Of a stretch of DNA of 36,031 nucleotides, positions 909-35,171 are shown in pieces (position 1 is the first letter of the stretch; each line of letters begins with the position of its first letter). Origin of the DNA: a virus; the IMG/VR virus record IMGVR_UViG_3300033143_002120, positions 1 to 36,031 of that record, one strand, 5' to 3'. The notes under the pieces were generated by a model, which was not told where the DNA came from, ran no database searches, and saw only the letters and a program-made list of their open reading frames with translations. The position numbers and the translations under genes were made by a program.

Positions 909-2842
909 TAGGCTGCATCCACAGTGACCGAGGTACGATTACCATTATTATCAGTTATAGCAGCAACACGAGGTTTAGATTTATCCATAGCCATAAATAT
1001 TGGATTCAGAGTATCTAATCCAGCTACTTCACCACTAGCAACTGCAGCAATAACTCGTAATACATGTGCTAATGAATAGTTACCTTCAATTTTTTCATCT
1101 ATATTTATTTTTGATTGCATTTCATTAACAACATTAAAACCAGTTGTTTCATTAACAAATTTACCTAATCCCCGGGCAATCATTTGTCCATCAAATAGAA
1201 GATTATTAGTATTATCAAAAGTTAATGAACCTTCTGATATTTCTGCAGTAACTTCATCAAGAATATCATTACAATGTTTAATGGTTAATCCACCACCATT
1301 CTTACGCACACTTAATTTACATGAACCAGCAGCATTCATACTTATTGTTGGTCTTCCTAATCCAGCAATTGCTGAAGCATTTTGTGTCATGTAAACAGTT
1401 CCACCATCAACACAGAATAAATCACCACCAAGGCCATTCTTTTCAAATGAACCATTTAACCAAAAACCACTCTTCAAATAAGATTCTTGAACAATTATTG
1501 CACCTATATAATCACCTTCCATTTGACAATGCCAAAATTCAGATTTTGATAAGTTTTGTCCATTACAATCAATTGTTGGTGTACCTACTCCAATAATTTT
1601 AAAGTTTTTAAGTTGACGGTCTAATACAATATCAGCGTAAACATAAAGTGTTTTTATATTATATTTTTCTGCATAATCAATAGCTGTAGTTAAAACATTA
1701 AAAGGAAATCTTTGTGAACCATCTCCTGCAATTAAAGATTCAGTATCTATCCAAATTGCTTGTTCTAAATGTTTTATAGTTTGTCCTGACACTGTATTAT
1801 CTTTTAATAAATCTACATTATCACTATATGTATCATCAATTCCAATTGAACCAGCATAAGCAATTGTACCACCTATATTAGATGCGTCAGTTATCACTAT
1901 TCCACCAGTACCAGATACACCAATAAATGACCCTGCAACCATATTAATAGGACGAATACGACCAGCAGACCAATCAGCAATAATAACTGTCTTTGCCAGG
2001 TTATCAAAATCAATTGTAATTTCTTGATTAGGAGCTGTATTAGCAATAAAACAATCTTCAAAATTAGTATTATCTAATATAGTTAATGTACCAGCTAAAG
2101 CAGATTTATAAATAAAACCATTAACATTAGTTAAATCACCAACAATACATTCCCAAACAATATTAAAAGCATCTAATTTCCCTGTTAAATAACAATCTTG
2201 AAATTTACAATTAGTTACGTCAGACCCTATATCACAATTAATATTAACTGATTGAGGATTATCACCAAAAAATACATGACCAACAGAATGGTCACCCGTT
2301 ATATTTATACTATCTAAAATATATATATTATGAAAACCACGGGTTTCCGAAATCATATGAAAATTCATTTCTGTTTTACATGGAGATTGGCGATTACCTA
2401 CAGGATACTCAACAGAATCTGTGCCTGTTGATTTAACACTAACACATAAACCTTGTTTACCAACGAAGGTTGGTATTTCTAAGAAAGTAGGGTCAATAAG
2501 AGCTGCAGTATTATTTGTACCAATACTTACCTGGTTACGAATTTCTACTGTTCTCCAATTAACATTGCCATCAATAAAATCGACACTATATAACCCATCT
2601 TCAAACTGTATAGTATATCCATTAATAATATCCACAATACGAGGAGTACCCGTAGTAGGTGAAGTATTTAAATATAAAGGAAAACCAATAGTTTCAGCGA
2701 TACCTTCAGCACTACTATTAAGTTCTCGTAGTAATTGAAAATAGTAAGTTACATCTAAAGTGTAATACGTTCCCCCAACCAGAGTTAATTCTGATTGAAG
2801 AATTGTAATTACTTTAGTAGGCCAATCACATGATAAAGGCAT
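908..2842 (-). CDS. Large beta-rich tail/structural protein, right-handed beta-helix-like
   Basis: A 644-residue acidic protein. The central region is a long run of short strands with many Asn, Gly, Ile and Thr (for example NCKFQDCYLTGKLDAFNIVW), typical of right-handed beta-helix or stacked-strand phage tail proteins. Near residue 370 the segment GDGSQRFPFNVLTTAIDYAE resembles the start of pectate-lyase-like tailspike folds (G-DGS-x-x-PF-x-T/L...A), followed by LKNFKIIGVGTPTIDC. The C-terminus (VAAITDNNGNRTSVTVDAA) resembles the ends of other phage baseplate or tail proteins. It lies in a chain of structural genes, three bases after the stop of the 550-residue gene. No enzymatic residues are evident; a structural or receptor-facing role is inferred. 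Confidence 0.85.
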   Translation of the reverse strand: MPLSCDWPTKVITILQSELTLVGGTYYTLDVTYYFQLLRELNSSAEGIAETIGFPLYLNTSPTTGTPRIVDIINGYTIQFEDGLYSVDFIDGNVNWRTVEIRNQVSIGTNNTAALIDPTFLEIPTFVGKQGLCVSVKSTGTDSVEYPVGNRQSPCKTEMNFHMISETRGFHNIYILDSINITGDHSVGHVFFGDNPQSVNINCDIGSDVTNCKFQDCYLTGKLDAFNIVWECIVGDLTNVNGFIYKSALAGTLTILDNTNFEDCFIANTAPNQEITIDFDNLAKTVIIADWSAGRIRPINMVAGSFIGVSGTGGIVITDASNIGGTIAYAGSIGIDDTYSDNVDLLKDNTVSGQTIKHLEQAIWIDTESLIAGDGSQRFPFNVLTTAIDYAEKYNIKTLYVYADIVLDRQLKNFKIIGVGTPTIDCNGQNLSKSEFWHCQMEGDYIGAIIVQESYLKSGFWLNGSFEKNGLGGDLFCVDGGTVYMTQNASAIAGLGRPTISMNAAGSCKLSVRKNGGGLTIKHCNDILDEVTAEISEGSLTFDNTNNLLFDGQMIARGLGKFVNETTGFNVVNEMQSKINIDEKIEGNYSLAHVLRVIAAVASGEVAGLDTLNPIFMAMDKSKPRVAAITDNNGNRTSVTVDAA

Positions 2843-7615: not shown

Positions 7616-7945
7616 TTAATTTCCTCGAATTACATCTACAGTAGTTAGCATATCTTTTTTATTACGATTAACTTTTAATTGAGTAACTTGATTACCCTTC
7701 ATAACTTTAACCATATCAGTAAGAAATACTTTGTTATCATTAATTATATTAACAGTTAAGTCCTTCGCTGCATTCGCAGCCTTAACGGCTGCTTCTGCTG
7801 CTTGGACAGCAGCAATCATTGTAGGAGAAGAATCTGATATATCAATAGCTTTAGATAAAGGTTTAGCTTTAGGAACAACTTCAATAGATGCACCTTTACG
7901 TTTTAACTTTGTTATTGCTTCTTTGGTAAGAACTTTTTTAGCCAT
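7616..7945 (-). CDS. Small helical protein, hypothetical
   Basis: I place the start at the ATG at 7945, whose AT overlaps the TAA of the 867-residue gene (TAATG). An upstream in-frame ATG at 7963 would need an 18-base overlap. The 109-residue product starts MAKKVLTKEAITKLKRKGAS. It has a basic N-terminus, an Ala-rich amphipathic helix around residues 48-70 (AAVQAAEAAVKAANAAKDLT) and a mixed C-terminus ending TTVDVIRGN. No family recognised. Its coupling to the large ejection-type protein suggests a virion-associated role. Confidence 0.75.
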   Translation of the reverse strand: MAKKVLTKEAITKLKRKGASIEVVPKAKPLSKAIDISDSSPTMIAAVQAAEAAVKAANAAKDLTVNIINDNKVFLTDMVKVMKGNQVTQLKVNRNKKDMLTTVDVIRGN

Positions 7946-10548
7946 TATCCACACCGTTTCCAAATTTCTGCATAAGCATCTAATTTATTATCAAGTAAGG
8001 TAAGTTCAGTTGCAATATTTTCTGTAATTTTAATTGTATTACCAGCTTCATCTAAAGCCTCAAATTCAATATTAACATCTTGTAATATTTGAATTGGAGT
8101 TTTTCTATCCGGGGTAATTTTCTTTTCCCGGGGTTCAATTTTCTTTTCTACTTTCTTTTCTGGCGTTGGTTTAGTAGCAGTTGGTTTTTTAGCTTTTAAA
8201 CCAAAGTGCTCAACTCCCATATTAATTGCTTGAGTAATGGTAGCTTCTAAAGCAGCAATTTCACCTTCAATAAGTTTACGTGTTTCTTTAGTATGAGGAA
8301 CATACTTACCATCTTTCAAATAACCTTTGGATAATTTAGCTTTTTGATGACGCAAAAAAGCATTTAATTCTTTTACAATTGCTATTGCTTCAGTACGATT
8401 ATCTAATGCTATTGCATTAGACATATTACGCATATGTTGAATAATACCAGTAAACTTACCATCTTTACTACCTTGCATTACTTCAGCATTAACCTGTGCT
8501 GATTTCTTACTTGCTGTTGCTGTTCTTACTGCAGCAGTTTTATCAACAAAGTCTTTATAATCTTCAAGAATTTTTATATCTTCTGGTTTAGCAGTATCTT
8601 TAAAATCAGTACTACCTAAAACTTTTTCAGTATCAGTTGGTGATAGGTCAGTATTTGTTACTGCACTTTTAACAATAGATTCAACAGCAGTTTTCTTTAA
8701 TGCTGGTGTAACTGTTACATTTTTATCTTGTTGTTCTGTAATAAGATTTACTGAATCAGCAATATCCTCTATTTCATTTTTTAAACGAATATGTGTTTCA
8801 ACCATTCGTACAACAGTATCACTATATTCTTTTATCTTAGCTGCTTGTTCTTGATAATCTTTAGCATCAGGAGTTTTTTCAATTTGTTCTTCAAACTTAG
8901 TTATTAATGCATCTAATTGTTTAATATTATTAACACGAGTTTTAGAATCTAATTTAGTTAAATCTTCATCAATAAGAGCTTGAATACCAACTTCATGTTT
9001 ACCAGTTTCTTTTGCTTTAGCAACAACTTCTTCTGTAGTACCAACACCACGACCTTTACCAAATTCTGCAACAGCAGCTGTACCTTTATGTACTATTTTC
9101 TCTGCACCTTTAACTGCAGGACTAATAGAGGCAGCAGTTGAAGTAACACCTGAAATTTGTCCACCTGCTACTGCACCTACAGCAACATCAGTTAATACTT
9201 CAACTGGGTCAATTTTAGATATGTCTTGTTTACCAGCAGCTTGAGCAAGAATATTTTGAGCACCCTCAGTACCACCTTCAACAAAAGTTGATTTAACTGG
9301 TTTACTTGTTACCACTTTAGCTGTTAAACCTAATGCTGTTTTAGCAGAAACTTTTCCAGCTTCTTTAATATTTTCTTTAGCAGCAGTAACAGTTGCTTTT
9401 GCAGTTTCAACTCCAGCAGCTTTTAAACCAGGTAGTTTTTTAACTAAGTCTTTAGCACCTAAAACAAACTTAGCACCAACAGCATCCAAACCAGCTGAAG
9501 CTAATGATAGAATACCAGCAACTGCTTTTTCAGAATCATTAGGAGTACGTTTATATTCTTTTTCAAATTCTTGTATTGCTTCGTTATAACCAGCAGAAGA
9601 AAGTGATGTAACACCAAGAACTGCATTTTTAGCCAATACATACATTTGTGGTAATGATTGAATAGTAAGTTCTGTTGCAGCAGCAGGGTCTTTAAGTGCA
9701 AGGTCAGATATAGCACCCATAAATGTACCAATACTACTTAACTCATTTCCTTCTTTAAATTTAGTAACTGCTTTACCTGCAGTTTTACCCAAACGATTTA
9801 ATGCAGCAGCAGTTTTCTTATTGTTAGCATAACCTTCAACTGCTTGAATACCTATTTGGACACTATCAATAAAAGTTTGACGATTTGCAATAGTTTCTAA
9901 TTTTTTAAATTTAGAAATACCTCGAACAATTGTTCGTCCTTTTTTATCTGTGGTTGTTGTTGGAGTAGTTAACCAAGCAGATTCTTCTGAAGTTAATTCA
10001 ATACCTGCAGATTGTTTACCTTTAATTTCTTTATAAATTGCAGTATCTTCCGCAGTTATACCAATACTATCTAAAGCATTAAGTAAACTTGAACCAGCCG
10101 TTACTGTTTCACCAACAACCCGGGAAGCACCACCAAATGCTTTTAAAGCAAGATTGGCAGCACCACCAGTAAACGTATCTGCAGTTTCATCAGAAAGTAA
10201 TGATTGTTTTTCACGTACACGCTTTTCTTCAGCAATAGCTAATTCATATGGTGTTGGGGCATTACGTTCTACTTTTTGAAAACGAGTAATTGCTTCTTCT
10301 TTTTTAAGAAGTAAATTTTTAAGTTTATTAAATTTTGTTCCAGCTAATAATTGTCTCTTTGCTTCTAGGGGAGACAAAATTGGAGCAGTATCTGCAAATT
10401 GTTGTTGAGCAGTTAAAGCAGCTAAATCAGATATTGTTGCTTGATTAGTTGTAGGAATAGCAGAAGGAGGAGGCAGCATGCTTCCATTTTCAGGAGAAAC
10501 TTCAGAGGTATCTATTGATACCCCTGGATTATTAAAATTAATTGCCAT
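7945..10548 (-). CDS. Large internal/ejection-type virion protein
   Basis: An 867-residue protein. The N-terminal third is Ala/Leu-rich and helical. Residues about 285-480 contain hydrophobic segments (ELTIQSLPQMYVLAKNAVLG; AVAGILSLASAGLDAVGAKF) followed by VEGGTEGAQNILAQAAGKQD and VLTDVAVGAVAGGQISG. The pattern E-x-G-x-E-G-x-Q...Q...D...A-x-G-A-x-x-G-G recurs in DNA-ejection proteins (T7 gp16-like) and in the N-terminal part of N4 virion RNA polymerase gp50. The C-terminal half is Lys/Glu/Thr-rich coiled coil, ending in FEALDEAGNTIKITENIATE and KRCG. No RNA polymerase motif or lytic transglycosylase motif is seen. Probably packaged in the head and released to line the envelope channel; inference from composition and position. 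Confidence 0.8.
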   Translation of the reverse strand: MAINFNNPGVSIDTSEVSPENGSMLPPPSAIPTTNQATISDLAALTAQQQFADTAPILSPLEAKRQLLAGTKFNKLKNLLLKKEEAITRFQKVERNAPTPYELAIAEEKRVREKQSLLSDETADTFTGGAANLALKAFGGASRVVGETVTAGSSLLNALDSIGITAEDTAIYKEIKGKQSAGIELTSEESAWLTTPTTTTDKKGRTIVRGISKFKKLETIANRQTFIDSVQIGIQAVEGYANNKKTAAALNRLGKTAGKAVTKFKEGNELSSIGTFMGAISDLALKDPAAATELTIQSLPQMYVLAKNAVLGVTSLSSAGYNEAIQEFEKEYKRTPNDSEKAVAGILSLASAGLDAVGAKFVLGAKDLVKKLPGLKAAGVETAKATVTAAKENIKEAGKVSAKTALGLTAKVVTSKPVKSTFVEGGTEGAQNILAQAAGKQDISKIDPVEVLTDVAVGAVAGGQISGVTSTAASISPAVKGAEKIVHKGTAAVAEFGKGRGVGTTEEVVAKAKETGKHEVGIQALIDEDLTKLDSKTRVNNIKQLDALITKFEEQIEKTPDAKDYQEQAAKIKEYSDTVVRMVETHIRLKNEIEDIADSVNLITEQQDKNVTVTPALKKTAVESIVKSAVTNTDLSPTDTEKVLGSTDFKDTAKPEDIKILEDYKDFVDKTAAVRTATASKKSAQVNAEVMQGSKDGKFTGIIQHMRNMSNAIALDNRTEAIAIVKELNAFLRHQKAKLSKGYLKDGKYVPHTKETRKLIEGEIAALEATITQAINMGVEHFGLKAKKPTATKPTPEKKVEKKIEPREKKITPDRKTPIQILQDVNIEFEALDEAGNTIKITENIATELTLLDNKLDAYAEIWKRCG

Positions 10549-30615: not shown

Positions 30616-32280
30616 TTAAACAATATAAGATTCTATTCCCGGGTCATCATATACATCATCATCTTCCCATAATTCAGAACCATGTTCTTTAATGTTAGGA
30701 GTTACCTCACTTGGCTTCCAAGGCTGAAGACTACCCAACATTGATATAGTATCAAGACAATCATCGTGTTTTGACTTAAATCCAGAAGGACTTGTTAAAG
30801 ATAGTTCATTAATAAACTCTACTATTCGTGGGTCTGTTTTAAATTCCTCTGGAAACCATATTTTCTTGGTTTTAAACAAAGGAACCATGATATTAAATCG
30901 TTCCATTTTATTAGTATTAGGACGAATACCTGGTTTATTACTATTATTATCAGTAGCCATATTAAAGTAAACATTACGGGTTACCATTTCAGTCATAATC
31001 CAAGAAATGAATCCTGCTTGTTGACCAGAAACTTCTATACCAACACTTGTTGGTTTATATTCAGTAACCAGGCGAAACAAATCATCAATATTTTTATTCA
31101 TTAATTGACGTTTCACAACACCATCAACCCATAACCAATCACCATGGTTATTATAGGCCCACACTGAAGTAACACTAAAATCACTTGCAGCTTTCTCACT
31201 GGTTGCATAATCAGTTGTAATATAAAAATTGAATAAGTGCTTGTTTTTTATAACATTTTGTCGCTTATACCAAGTAATATCAGAATCTTGAATTAATCGG
31301 TCTTCATCAGACATGATACGAAGCATTAATTCTTGGTTAAAAGTGTCAACTTTACCCATTTTTACAGCTTTCGTATATTGACGTAATACATAATCATAAT
31401 CGAAACGGTCTTCCCAGGAACCTTTGAATTCTTCTCGTGTACATGGAAAATTTTCGCATACCGGGTAAACATTTACATTCCATGCCCCAGACTCAACTGC
31501 TTTATATAATGGGTCCTTTGCATTGAAGGGTGTACCTGACCAAATAATCTTACGTTTTTGTGGATGTAACGCATAATCAATAGCTTTATAAACTGTATCT
31601 TCTACATCAGCAATTACTGTTGCAGACCGTGCATCAGCATCAGATATCAAATCATCCAATAATGCTAATACTGGACGACTACCATTCTCACGAGTACCAC
31701 GAACACCGGTTTTTGCGCCATATCCGGAAACCACAAAAGAGTTTCCATTTATATTTATAAATTCCCAGCGAATATCAGTAAATTGAATTTTAGGGATATA
31801 TTTCTGTAAAAATTTAGAGTTATTCCACCGATACTCCAAACTCTTACGCATTTTCTTAACACCATTATCAATGCTGTCAGAAACATAAATAGCATAAGGA
31901 ACCTTACCAAAACCAGGTAACTTGCCATATACGCCGAGATATAGGATTAAGTATTCTTTTAAGGTGGATTTAGCGATACCACGATGACACATATTAAGTG
32001 TGTCTTTACCATTATCCGCAACAAAATTATCCAACATTTTAAAGTGAACAACTGGAGTTTTATTCTCAGATTCACCACCATCAACCATTTTGATGAAATT
32101 AACAAATTCAAGGGCAAATTCACTGGGAATATAAAAACTATCTGCAGCATAATCAATAGTATTTAGATAATCTTCAACTGATAGTTCTTGCACCGGTTCT
32201 TGCATCAACAAGGCTTCTGCAGCACGATTTGCATACAAACTTCGAATAGCCGGGTTATTTGGATTACCTTGGTTTTGCAT
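30616..32280 (-). CDS. terL: Terminase large subunit (DNA-packaging ATPase/nuclease)
   Basis: A 554-residue packaging motor. The Walker A-like motif is CHRGIAKST (residues 98-106), a variant P-loop like the RG(A/S)AK(S/T) form of N4- and T7-type terminases. Walker B is VLALLDDL (204-211). The C-terminal RNase H-like nuclease shows the expected acidic residues: TTDYAT with Asp357, VGIEVSG with Glu416 and KHDDCLDTIS with Asp506/507/510. It pumps DNA through the portal and cuts concatemers. The ATG overlaps the upstream TAA as TAATG. The gene is preceded by two tiny genes and the small-subunit candidate. Confidence 0.9.
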   Translation of the reverse strand: MQNQGNPNNPAIRSLYANRAAEALLMQEPVQELSVEDYLNTIDYAADSFYIPSEFALEFVNFIKMVDGGESENKTPVVHFKMLDNFVADNGKDTLNMCHRGIAKSTLKEYLILYLGVYGKLPGFGKVPYAIYVSDSIDNGVKKMRKSLEYRWNNSKFLQKYIPKIQFTDIRWEFININGNSFVVSGYGAKTGVRGTRENGSRPVLALLDDLISDADARSATVIADVEDTVYKAIDYALHPQKRKIIWSGTPFNAKDPLYKAVESGAWNVNVYPVCENFPCTREEFKGSWEDRFDYDYVLRQYTKAVKMGKVDTFNQELMLRIMSDEDRLIQDSDITWYKRQNVIKNKHLFNFYITTDYATSEKAASDFSVTSVWAYNNHGDWLWVDGVVKRQLMNKNIDDLFRLVTEYKPTSVGIEVSGQQAGFISWIMTEMVTRNVYFNMATDNNSNKPGIRPNTNKMERFNIMVPLFKTKKIWFPEEFKTDPRIVEFINELSLTSPSGFKSKHDDCLDTISMLGSLQPWKPSEVTPNIKEHGSELWEDDDVYDDPGIESYIV

Positions 32281-32468: not shown

Positions 32469-32662
32469 TTTTTAGTTCCTTGTGTCAATAAATCTTCCAC
32501 TATTCCCATATTTTTTAAATGGTCTAAATCAGCATCATCCGGGGCGTTTAAAATATTATTTTTATCTGAATCATCATATTCAGGGTCAGCCATAACTTCC
32601 TGGTCAAAACAATAGTCAGCCAGGTCTGTCTGAATACAAGATTTTTTGTTTTCTTTATTCAT
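32465..32662 (-). CDS. Small acidic hypothetical protein in packaging block
   Basis: A 65-residue protein, MNKENKKSCIQTDLADYCFD, rich in Asp and Asn, with two Cys. No recognisable family. It overlaps both neighbours (eight bases with the small-terminase candidate, four with the next gene), which supports translation from this frame. Confidence 0.7.
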   Translation of the reverse strand: MNKENKKSCIQTDLADYCFDQEVMADPEYDDSDKNNILNAPDDADLDHLKNMGIVEDLLTQGTKK

Positions 32663-33368
32663 TTTCTGATACTAATTCCGATTCACCAACAATAACTTCA
32701 GAGTGTGCCACATCTTTAGGTGTCATAGCACCAGCTTCTATCATTTGGCGTTGTCGTTTTGCTAATGCAAGTGTGGCTTCTCGAAGTTCATTAATCGACT
32801 TATCTTCTTTAACACTAACATCCAACTCAATTTTTTGAGTTTCTGGTGTCTTTAAATGAGTCAATAAACTATTAGCAGCATCAGATTGTACTTTTTCTGA
32901 ATTAGCATTAGTCATCAGGAACGCCTGGCGGTTCAAAGCTTTCTGGTATAAATCAGCATTTAAAATATGAACAGGAATAAGAGTCTGTTCCATTATTTTA
33001 TTTACTAACTGAGTTTTATTATAAGCTGTGGAATAGCTGGCAATTGTTTTATCTTCAGCTTGCTCATCAAGTAATCTTTGATAACGGTCTGGGAACGTTT
33101 TTGTATATGCTTCAATATTACTTGCACCAAGCAACTTAAAAGAAACATAACGAACCGCATTAACATAATCCCCAATTTTGTACTTACCATCAGCCATTAC
33201 TCCTGTGTAACTCAATAAGTTATCACGAAAATTTTCACGAAGTTGTTGGTCACCCATTAAAGAATTAATGTTGGCTACCAATTCATCAGTAACCCGGGTC
33301 TTTACCTGCTTAGGTAAAACCCGAATAAACTGCTCTTTAGTAAGGGTTGCTATTGCAATATCAGACAT
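32655..33368 (-). CDS. Terminase small subunit candidate
   Basis: A 237-residue mostly helical protein (MSDIAIATLTKEQFIRVLPK). The first 150 residues contain a helical core with LLSYTGVMADGKYKIGDYVN, AVRYVSFKLLGASNIEAYTK and FPDRYQRLLDEQAEDKTIAS. The C-terminus is a charged coiled coil (KSINELREATLALAKRQRQM) with an acidic tail. Position upstream of TerL, size, and a helical N-domain plus oligomerising coil fit a small terminase that recognises the packaging site. No clear helix-turn-helix can be proven by eye. It overlaps the deaminase gene by eight bases. Confidence 0.65.
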   Translation of the reverse strand: MSDIAIATLTKEQFIRVLPKQVKTRVTDELVANINSLMGDQQLRENFRDNLLSYTGVMADGKYKIGDYVNAVRYVSFKLLGASNIEAYTKTFPDRYQRLLDEQAEDKTIASYSTAYNKTQLVNKIMEQTLIPVHILNADLYQKALNRQAFLMTNANSEKVQSDAANSLLTHLKTPETQKIELDVSVKEDKSINELREATLALAKRQRQMIEAGAMTPKDVAHSEVIVGESELVSENE

Positions 33369-33822
33369 TTGAATATAACTCTGAGTATTTAAGTCTTAAT
33401 ATATTAGCATTTCGTGATATATCAGCACCCATATTATTTGGGTAAGCTTCTTTATAAATAATCTTAGAAATACCAACATTAGCCAAAGCACCTGAACACA
33501 TTACACATGGTTCGGTTGTACAATATAAAGTACTATTTTTCAGTGAGATTCCTTCCCGGGCCGCATTAGCAATTCCATTGGCTTCAGCATGTGCACAACC
33601 GCACATATCTAATTTTTCACCAGAAGGAACATTTTGCTCTCTTCGAATACAAATTAATGGATGTGGTGTTTTAGCAGGTACACCATTAAATCCTGTTGTT
33701 AAAACACGATTGTCCTTGATGAAAACTGCACCTACTTTTCGTCCAGCGGCACAGGTACTCATTTCAGCAGCATGCTCTGCGGCTTCCATCCAGTGTGTGT
33801 CCCAAGATTTTCTTTTTGACAT
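33361..33822 (-). CDS. Deoxycytidylate (dCMP) deaminase-like enzyme
   Basis: A 153-residue zinc-dependent deaminase converting dCMP to dUMP for dTTP synthesis. The family motifs are present: a CAHAE catalytic segment (residues 76-80; His78 zinc ligand, Glu80 proton shuttle) and EPCVMCSGAL (Cys106 and Cys109 zinc ligands). The N-terminal CAAGRKVGAVFIKDN and GFNGVP substrate segment also match, as does the extra zinc-binding CGCAHAE/Cys-rich insert of phage enzymes. The AAAGGAT ribosome-binding site lies just below a hairpin with a T-tract. A nucleotide-metabolism gene between the accessory and packaging genes is common in lytic phages. Confidence 0.9.
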   Translation of the reverse strand: MSKRKSWDTHWMEAAEHAAEMSTCAAGRKVGAVFIKDNRVLTTGFNGVPAKTPHPLICIRREQNVPSGEKLDMCGCAHAEANGIANAAREGISLKNSTLYCTTEPCVMCSGALANVGISKIIYKEAYPNNMGADISRNANILRLKYSELYSNV

Positions 33823-33836
33823 ATTTTTATCCTTTA

Positions 33837-33910
33837 AGAAAAAGTGGCTTCACCCAACCCCGAAGCTCTCTTTAGAAAGCTAAGTATACGTAAAGAGTTG
33901 GTGTGAAACC
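33837..33910 (-). terminator. Hairpin with T-tract between acidic-protein gene and dCMP deaminase
   Basis: Arms on the minus strand GGTTTCACACCAAC (33897-33910) and GTTGGGTGAAGCC (33846-33858) pair with one bulge. An inner stem CTCTTTA/TAAAGAG is also present. The lower arm is followed at once by ACTTTTTCTT, as in an intrinsic terminator. It sits in a 95-base gap, right before the ribosome-binding site of the deaminase, so it may be an attenuator or processing hairpin rather than a full stop. Confidence 0.6.
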
Positions 33911-33917
33911 GTGGTAT

Positions 33918-34403
33918 TTATTTACTATCTGGACCGTCGATATTACCATAACCAGCAGCTGATTCACGACTACCTGGAACAATTTCCGGACGACCAGGCT
34001 TACCACCACTATCGGTTGGGTCATTCTTTTCTGCTATGACAGTTTTATCTTCGCCGGGTGCAGCCATATCAATACCAACTTTTACTGCAGCAGGGTCAGT
34101 TACATCAACTTCATTTAAAGAACCATTTGCTACTTCATCAGTTGTTTCTTCACCATCATTAGCAACTAAACCTTCAGTTTCATCAGTGGATTCACCTGCA
34201 GCAGCCATATCCTGAGCTAAAAACATTGATTCATCAGTATTACTTTCAGGAGCTTCATCTGCAGCAGACAATGCAGCAATATCTTCATCAGTTAAATCAA
34301 CCTTATCAACATCATCAACTACTGGTTCAGTTGCCAAAACATCTTCATCACCAAACGCTTCACCTTCACGATTTTCTTTACGCATTTTTTCTCGTAAACT
34401 CAT
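33918..34403 (-). CDS. Acidic hypothetical protein
   Basis: A 161-residue protein with about 27 percent Asp plus Glu by my count. The N-terminus is basic (MSLREKMRKENREGEAFG). The centre is an Asp/Glu/Thr/Ala low-complexity stretch and the C-terminus Gly/Pro-rich (KPGRPEIVPGSRESAAGYGN). It seems largely disordered. It lies between a Tad2-like gene and the deaminase. Many phages carry such acidic proteins upstream of packaging genes; I know no function. A DNA-mimic role is possible for any very acidic phage protein, but nothing specific supports it. Confidence 0.75.
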   Translation of the reverse strand: MSLREKMRKENREGEAFGDEDVLATEPVVDDVDKVDLTDEDIAALSAADEAPESNTDESMFLAQDMAAAGESTDETEGLVANDGEETTDEVANGSLNEVDVTDPAAVKVGIDMAAPGEDKTVIAEKNDPTDSGGKPGRPEIVPGSRESAAGYGNIDGPDSK

Positions 34404-34430
34404 TTTTCACCTACCTATTTAAATTAAAAT

Positions 34431-34649
34431 TTAATTACTTGGTTCCCATTCTTCAGAAAACATTTCAATCATTGTTTCCTTCCAGGGGACCTTACCAAAC
34501 CGAGATTCCACATATAAATATGGAGCAGTCATCTTACTGTTTTCATCCGGTCGTTGAACCCGAATATTTACATCTTCTGACCAAGAAGGTAATCGTATAC
34601 CACCGATACTGCCTTCCAATAATTTATGTAGAGCTAATCCAAAATCCAT
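34431..34649 (-). CDS. tad2: Tad2-like (DUF2829) anti-Thoeris protein
   Basis: A 72-residue protein matching the DUF2829/Tad2 pattern as I know it: M-x-F-x-x-A-L at the start (MDFGLALHKLLEGS), G-x-R-L-P-x-W (residues 17-23), a central strand and the segment M(T)APYLYVESRFGKVPWKETM (Pro43-Tyr44 and Pro55-Trp56), then the C-terminal EEW (66-68, matching D-W). Known Tad2 proteins form tetramers that sequester the cyclic ADP-ribose-type signal made by Thoeris and so stop NAD depletion. The start overlaps the upstream stop (TAATG). Family fit is by motif recall; DUF2829 members are not all tested as anti-Thoeris. Confidence 0.75.
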   Translation of the reverse strand: MDFGLALHKLLEGSIGGIRLPSWSEDVNIRVQRPDENSKMTAPYLYVESRFGKVPWKETMIEMFSEEWEPSN

Positions 34650-34960
34650 TATCCACCTACCCGTAATGACAATTTTTCAGCTAACAAGAAACCAAATAAA
34701 GGCCATAATTTCTTAATAGCATCCTGGTGAGCATAAGTTTCACCAATATCAGTATTGAAATTAGCAACATCAACACACGCAGATTCCCCACGGACAGAGT
34801 ACCCATTATCTAAAATAATATTACAGATTGTGGTGGTAGTACCAGGCAGGATGATAAATTCGGTTTTTTGAATACGGGAATGAATATAATCAATTGTTAT
34901 ACGGTCACCTGGGAGATTTTCTAAAGCTTGTTCTAACATTTCAGGACTTAATAAACTCAT
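34649..34960 (-). CDS. N4 Gp49/Sf6 gp66-family protein
   Basis: About 103 residues. The ATG at 34960 lies nine to ten bases after GAGGA; a GTG at 34966 with short spacing is an alternative. Key family segments are FIILPGTTTTICNIILDNGY, GESACVDVANFNTDIGE and AIKKLWPLFGFLLAEKL, matching the Gp49/gene 66 family (typically I-LPGTTVT-C...NGF-V-GESACA...F....G...A...A...W..LGY.L). Function in N4 and Sf6 is not established to my knowledge. The start/stop overlap to the Tad2-like gene suggests co-translation. Confidence 0.85.
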   Translation of the reverse strand: MSLLSPEMLEQALENLPGDRITIDYIHSRIQKTEFIILPGTTTTICNIILDNGYSVRGESACVDVANFNTDIGETYAHQDAIKKLWPLFGFLLAEKLSLRVGG

Positions 34961-35022
34961 TTGCACTTTTCCTCTATGTGATTTGAGAAAAGCAAATATA
35001 GTCTTTAGTCTGAGTTAAGTCA

Positions 35023-35128
35023 AATATTTTATTCGAGAAAATTCGAATGAGTGATGTTGCGCCAGGCCAAGGCCGTAGGCACGAGGCCAAGCAACATCAC
35101 GAATGAGAATTTGAACGAATAAAATATT
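35023..35128. repeat. 106-bp interrupted palindrome
   Basis: Perfect 13-base outer arms AATATTTTATTCG (35023-35035) and CGAATAAAATATT (35116-35128) enclose a 10-base perfect inner stem GTGATGTTGC (35051-35060) with GCAACATCAC (35091-35100). A partially matching middle and a GC-rich loop with repeated GGCC units (35061-35090) complete it. The gap 34961-35199 holds no gene. It looks like a folded-back or miniature mobile element, or a strong structural element for packaging or replication. Confidence 0.75.
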
Positions 35129-35142
35129 ATAAATAATAACGC

Positions 35143-35161
35143 GATTTCCGGAGCGGAAATC
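35143..35161 (-). terminator. Perfect 8-bp hairpin after membrane protein gene
   Basis: On the minus strand GATTTCCG, loop CTC, CGGAAATC is a perfect stem. GCGTTATTATTTATAATATTTT follows, T-rich but broken by A. It lies about 40 bases after the stop of the membrane protein gene, so it may act as a terminator for it, with the downstream palindrome adding to the effect. Confidence 0.5.
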
Positions 35162-35171
35162 ACTAGCTCGT

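Follow-up and report, generated by a model that had tools for sequence, protein, structure and literature searches.

Two overlapping small genes upstream of the terminase genes in a 36-kb virus record (the window, by which the whole stretch of DNA analysed is meant) probably form a counter-defence cassette of an N4-like phage that encodes two sponges, one of the Acb4 and one of the Tad2 family (Table 1). In such a cassette the Acb4-family protein would trap CBASS-type cyclic dinucleotides, and tad2, which lies downstream of acb4, would be translated through the TAATG overlap to give a short sponge with the Tad2 fold, predicted to trap the TIR-derived ADP-ribose-type signal of a Thoeris-like system, the effector of which would stay off once its signal had been trapped. 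As the short Tad2 departs from canonical members in its pocket motifs, the ligand may not be gcADPR. It seems likely that the two window proteins are sponges, and rather doubtful that gcADPR in particular is the ligand of the Tad2-like one.

Table 1. Features of the window and of related loci referred to in the text
Feature	Record	Position	Strand	Evidence or annotation
Terminase large subunit (TerL), anchor of the positional survey	window	30616..32280	(-)	phrog_38, E 5.8e-96
Likely small terminase subunit, reference point for the insertion site	window	32655..33368	(-)	phrog_2109
dCMP deaminase-like gene	window	33361..33822	(-)	phrog_174, E 1.8e-40; synteny with L080
Short-subfamily Tad2-like gene, 72 aa, predicted nucleotide-signal sponge	window	34431..34649	(-)	PF11195, AF2 model, Foldseek
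TAATG stop/start overlap coupling acb4 to tad2	window	34647..34651	(-)	sequence; likewise N4 gp48/gp49
Acb4-family gene, 105 aa, predicted anti-CBASS cyclic-dinucleotide sponge	window	34649..34966	(-)	PF13876; alignment with N4 gp48 and SPO1 Acb4
Sigma-70-like promoter TTGACT-17-TATATT (tentative)	window	34995..35023	(-)	10/12 matches; 29 nt before the acb4 GTG
Terminator-like hairpin parting the cassette from upstream genes (tentative)	window	35141..35163	(-)	hairpin search
N4 gp49, extra domain plus Tad2-like domain	L138	8004-8486
Acb4-Tad2 fusion ORF	Pasteurella phage Pmp13 (L279)	1504-2061		annotated hypothetical protein
Acb4-Tad2 fusion ORF	Pasteurella phage Pm86 (L280)	1501-2058		annotated hypothetical protein
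Acb4-Tad2 fusion ORF	L231	3001-3537

The Tad2-like gene and the short subfamily

A first-pass annotation had assigned a 72-residue open reading frame of the window to DUF2829/Tad2, and both the gene and the assignment held up. The frame has an ATG start, relatives of its product with 36-81% identity were found at 45 IMG/VR loci, and 12 comparisons gave 230, 144 and 402 base differences at codon positions 1, 2 and 3 respectively, indicating that the protein is under selection. The HMM search and the structure prediction that had been proposed as checks were both run. PF11195 (Tad2-like) matched residues 1-69 with 29.8 bits (E 8.6e-7), the gathering cut-off being 25 bits, and phrog_1048 matched at 7e-7. 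A single-sequence AlphaFold model of the 72-mer had a pLDDT of 50 and was set aside; with a 14-sequence alignment (A1) as input, AF2 gave a model with a pLDDT of 90.1 and a pTM of 0.75, for which the sole PDB matches at a Foldseek probability of 1.00 were SPO1 Tad2 (8wje; TM 0.68, E 0.008) and Myroides Tad2 (8v3e; TM 0.70, E 0.037), all later matches having a probability of 0.11 or less. The modest E-values reflect a query of only 72 residues. When the same model was used for a structure search among viral models, the named top matches were mostly 'Thoeris anti-defense 2-like' proteins. Single-sequence phmmer with the 72-mer did not retrieve Tad2 from the PDB and retrieval was by alignment only: the A1 profile, which contains three canonical members, found solved Tad2/AcrIIA7 chains, and profile-profile comparison of the short subfamily only with a profile of the SPO1, Myroides and N4 proteins gave 95.7% (E 9e-9). 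No model in PADLOC or NCBIfam matched the protein. By HMM, profile-profile comparison and fold, the window ORF encodes a Tad2-family protein, and sponge activity is known from the work of others for the SPO1, Myroides and other Tad2 proteins.

The presence of AcrIIA7/HgmTad2 chains among the profile matches, together with the name 'anti-CRISPR protein' given to some phage homologues, raises the question of whether the protein could instead block Cas9 in the manner of AcrIIA7, a PF11195 relative named as an inhibitor of type II CRISPR-Cas. This is highly improbable, as the relation is distant and at the level of profiles only, the AcrIIA7 chains have motifs of the canonical type, AcrIIA7 is itself a signal sponge according to structure entries and reviews, and the pairing with Acb4 points to nucleotide signals.

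The window protein has the FG..A start, P21-x-W23, P55-W56 and E66-E67-W68. The start, PxW and EEW positions to which the first-pass annotation had pointed are therefore all present, but LPxW is typical of a short subfamily, the canonical forms being RxGWNGKG and EDW. In an alignment of 132 sequences, 38 were of this short type and, with one partial row, were grouped on the tree with an SH-aLRT of 100; the label short or canonical changed twice over the tree, compared with 33 times in shuffles. Canonical Tad2 proteins conserve G-W-N-G at 95-100% and the S, Q and D of SQxD at 92, 81 and 95%, whereas the short type has R-L-P-x-W-x-(gap)-x-D-V, one residue fewer, at the first of these places and W-K-E-T-M-I-E at the second, the replacement motifs being mostly 78-100% conserved within the subfamily. 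The insertion after beta2 is also missing. Set beside SPO1 gp34.65, ModTad2, HgmTad2/AcrIIA7 and SptTad2, the window protein is alike in passing the cut-off of the family HMM, in its fold, in its start and in its conserved tryptophans, and unlike in its length, in having no insertion, and in carrying LPSWSEDV (LPxWxxDV in general form) for GWNGKG and KETMIE for SQxD. Both canonical motifs are thus absent from it, though these are common features of PF11195 rather than formal requirements of the family.

To the gcADPR pocket one protomer contributes its beta1-beta2 loop, beta3-beta4 loop and strand beta4, and another contributes its beta1-beta2 loop, beta4-alpha3 loop and helix alpha3 (PMC12043709). 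Judged by sequence position, both replaced motifs would fall within these elements, so that gcADPR should not be assumed to be the ligand of the short Tad2, and we infer an altered ligand preference. The long insertion has been credited with cyclic-dinucleotide binding (review PMC12043709), and its loss suggests that the short type would not bind ligands of the cGG type. It could be argued that the window protein is nevertheless an ordinary Tad2, which binds 1''-3' gcADPR as SPO1 Tad2 does and blocks type I Thoeris, with motif changes that leave the ligand unaffected; it is of the same family and fold, and the short type retains tryptophan behind the first strand, in PW and close to the C-terminal end. 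However, the changes strike the very elements reported to form the pocket, the conservation of the replacement motifs suggests a different function rather than drift, and ModTad2 demonstrates that the ligand can vary among members of the family (PMC13299392), which leaves the ordinary Tad2 a somewhat unlikely explanation.

Members of the short type are found in Enterococcus and Latilactobacillus phages, which hold the closest relatives of the window protein, and on contigs of Lachnospiraceae, Parabacteroides, Pelotomaculum and Flavobacterium. From such unrelated settings the gene appears to travel among phages of very different hosts. The subfamily lends itself to the question of which TIR-made signal is recognised, and it may lead to a signal for which no sponge is known as yet. 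Short-type and canonical-type Tad2-like genes stand in tandem on two contigs (L006, 283-1006; L036, 3957-4390), and in the former an Acb4 gene comes next, which brings the run to three putative sponges. Elsewhere a diverged short-type domain lies near the start of a long protein (L021, 6001-6156, and also L022-L024 and L026), an open frame of about 287 aa in which there are also a Cys-rich stretch and a charged tail.

The Acb4-family partner and the junction

The gene upstream of tad2 had been described as an N4 Gp49-family gene of no known function, a description that is out of date, since PF13876 is now the Acb4 family and includes SPO1 Acb4 (PMC11722364). The accompanying suggestions, that the cluster might hold further host-take-over genes and that the TAATG coupling might reflect a functional link with this partner, are better supported now that PF13876 is known as an anti-CBASS family. 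PF13876 matched the whole of the partner protein with 77.1 bits (cut-off 27) and there was a weak phmmer match to PDB 9e4w (Acb4); on these sequence grounds the gene belongs to the Acb4 anti-CBASS family. Its start is equally likely to be the GTG at 34966, which gives 105 aa, or the ATG at 34960. Sponge activity is known for SPO1 Acb4 and eight homologues, all 8 of the tested homologues binding 3'3'-cGAMP and those from phages of Gram-negative hosts binding 3'3'-cAA as well (PMC11722364), and for N4 gp48, an Acb4 that is both required for triggering the Panoptes defence and able to do so by itself (PMC12657230). The window protein is 21% identical to SPO1 Acb4 (gp1.3) and 38% identical to N4 gp48. 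The SPO1 adenine-pocket residues F62, N63 and I66 are kept, and F48 is replaced by Tyr (contacts from PMC11722364), but the protein differs at K36, E49, Y57 and T70, which contact guanine or phosphate. The active N4 Acb4 also departs from SPO1 at these four positions and the window residues are mostly as in N4.

The coupling itself is evident in the sequence, the stop codon of acb4 sharing 1 nt with the start codon of tad2 (GGTGGATAATGG), and an AGGTGG Shine-Dalgarno-like stretch lies within the 3' end of acb4, ahead of tad2. Directly upstream of acb4 there is an inverted repeat (35023-35128) with 38-nt arms that are 82% complementary and a folding energy of -42.8 kcal/mol (z -8). Rfam gave no match at the hairpin or the inverted repeat, and no DNA relative of the region upstream of acb4 was found in phage records. 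Promoter matches around the cassette did not exceed those in shuffles, and the region contains five terminator-like sites against a shuffle mean of 2.4. The hairpin at 35143-35161 could conceivably be an N4-type early promoter, to which it bears a loose likeness. Tentatively, the promoter, hairpin and repeat would fit with acb4 and tad2 being an independently transcribed unit.

Pairing and fusion of the two families

In phage N4 itself, acb4 (gp48, 33632-34003) is followed by a DUF2829 gene (gp49, 34003-34485) with the same one-base overlap of stop and start as in the window. The N4 arrangement differs in that gp49 has a canonical Tad2-like domain preceded by an N-terminal domain of about 80 aa, and in that the pair adjoins the virion RNA polymerase (vRNAP) gene whereas the window pair is near the terminase. 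Further N4-like phages also have genes of the two families side by side, or almost so, on the same strand. Pairs of this kind, several of them in unrelated phages, are present in Escherichia phages Huey and IME10, Acidovorax phage AP1, Pseudoalteromonas phage XG4 and the IMG/VR contigs L006, L109 and L224, and in the siphovirus ctpbd312 the two genes are adjacent with a 4-nt overlap. In all of the listed paired loci both domains are on the same strand and 2-719 bp apart. The two domains are joined in one ORF in three records, Pasteurella phages Pmp13 and Pm86, the fusion proteins of which are near-identical, and IMGVR_UViG_2524614508_000001; in the Pmp13 and IMG/VR proteins both PF13876 and PF11195 exceed their Pfam cut-offs.

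The named phages were chosen for carrying both families, so that the count of contigs alone is a fair test of linkage, and it is a small one. Of the eight IMG/VR contigs that carry both families, the window being left out, five have the two on the same strand and within 500 bp of each other, and permutation of gene placement on the six long contigs with both gave a P of 1.5e-5 for three or more being linked. Most contigs and phages carry one of the two families only. We rejected the notion that Acb4 is the usual partner of the short Tad2 itself, as PF13876 was present on only 1 of the 45 contigs of the short subfamily. The linkage is one between the families at large, and it is not universal. 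Neither family is new; their recurrent pairing or fusion was not mentioned in the open-access papers searched, the Acb4 and Panoptes papers among them.

The N-terminal domain of N4 gp49, which has the pattern YIGTK...SWSP...F..AY and no match in Pfam, precedes the Tad2 domain in N4, IME10, Huey, AP1, ctpbd312, XG4, L080 and L109; in six other loci (L230, L258, L264, L267, L277 and L278) it is joined to Acb4, and phrog_9467 covers both this domain and Acb4. Its fusion to either family is further evidence, in the form of domain swapping, that Acb4 and Tad2 work in one setting. The pairing suggests a counter-defence module directed at two signals, gives N4 gp49 a testable role, and leads to the prediction that neighbours of PF13876 and PF11195 genes would also be anti-defence genes. 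A bolder proposal, which is possible and is put forward only tentatively, is that the pocket of the short Tad2 has been rebuilt for a signal other than gcADPR or His-ADPR, and that phages repeatedly pair or fuse Tad2- and Acb4-type sponges into one module against TIR-type and CBASS-type alarms at the same time.

Position in N4-like genomes

In the window, TerL is 61-68% identical to that of many N4-like phages, the portal protein matches phrog_1216 and the major capsid protein phrog_1357, from which it follows that the window is part of an N4-like (Schitoviridae) genome. An ORF of 867 aa (7945-10548) matches the N4 virion RNA polymerase family over residues 511-739 only, corresponding to positions 519-735 of a profile of 3406, and the other window ORFs tested gave no match to that family; the vRNAP of this phage may be short, split or located elsewhere in the fragmentary genome.

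As the first-pass annotation had noticed, tad2 lies near the packaging genes. Homologues of the likely small-subunit gene of the window are found directly upstream of TerL in most N4-like loci, and the Paxi homologue is annotated as a terminase small subunit. A positional survey covered 37 TerL-anchored N4-like loci for which 2.5 kb or more of upstream sequence was available. In 9 of these, a gene for Acb4 or for a Tad2-like protein lay 0.9-2.1 kb upstream of TerL, and none occurred at 2.2-7 kb in the upstream DNA present in each locus; in the window, tad2 and acb4 are 2.2 and 2.4 kb upstream.

It may be asked whether this location reflects an accessory role outside defence, in the late or packaging programme, the fold being used to bind some other small molecule or a protein. 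The pair is on the same strand as, and near, the terminase genes and the dCMP deaminase, and N4-like phages repeatedly have genes of this sort at this location. Their presence is sporadic, however, the closest relatives of the window Tad2 are in the unrelated Enterococcus and Latilactobacillus phages, and the N4 pair has the vRNAP gene as its neighbour instead, so that a role of this kind is distinctly unlikely. The spot upstream of TerL looks like a recurrent slot: L080 has the small terminase, dCMP deaminase and Tad2-like genes in the same order as the window, with a Tad2 of the canonical type, and in the window phage the slot would be occupied by another type of Tad2.
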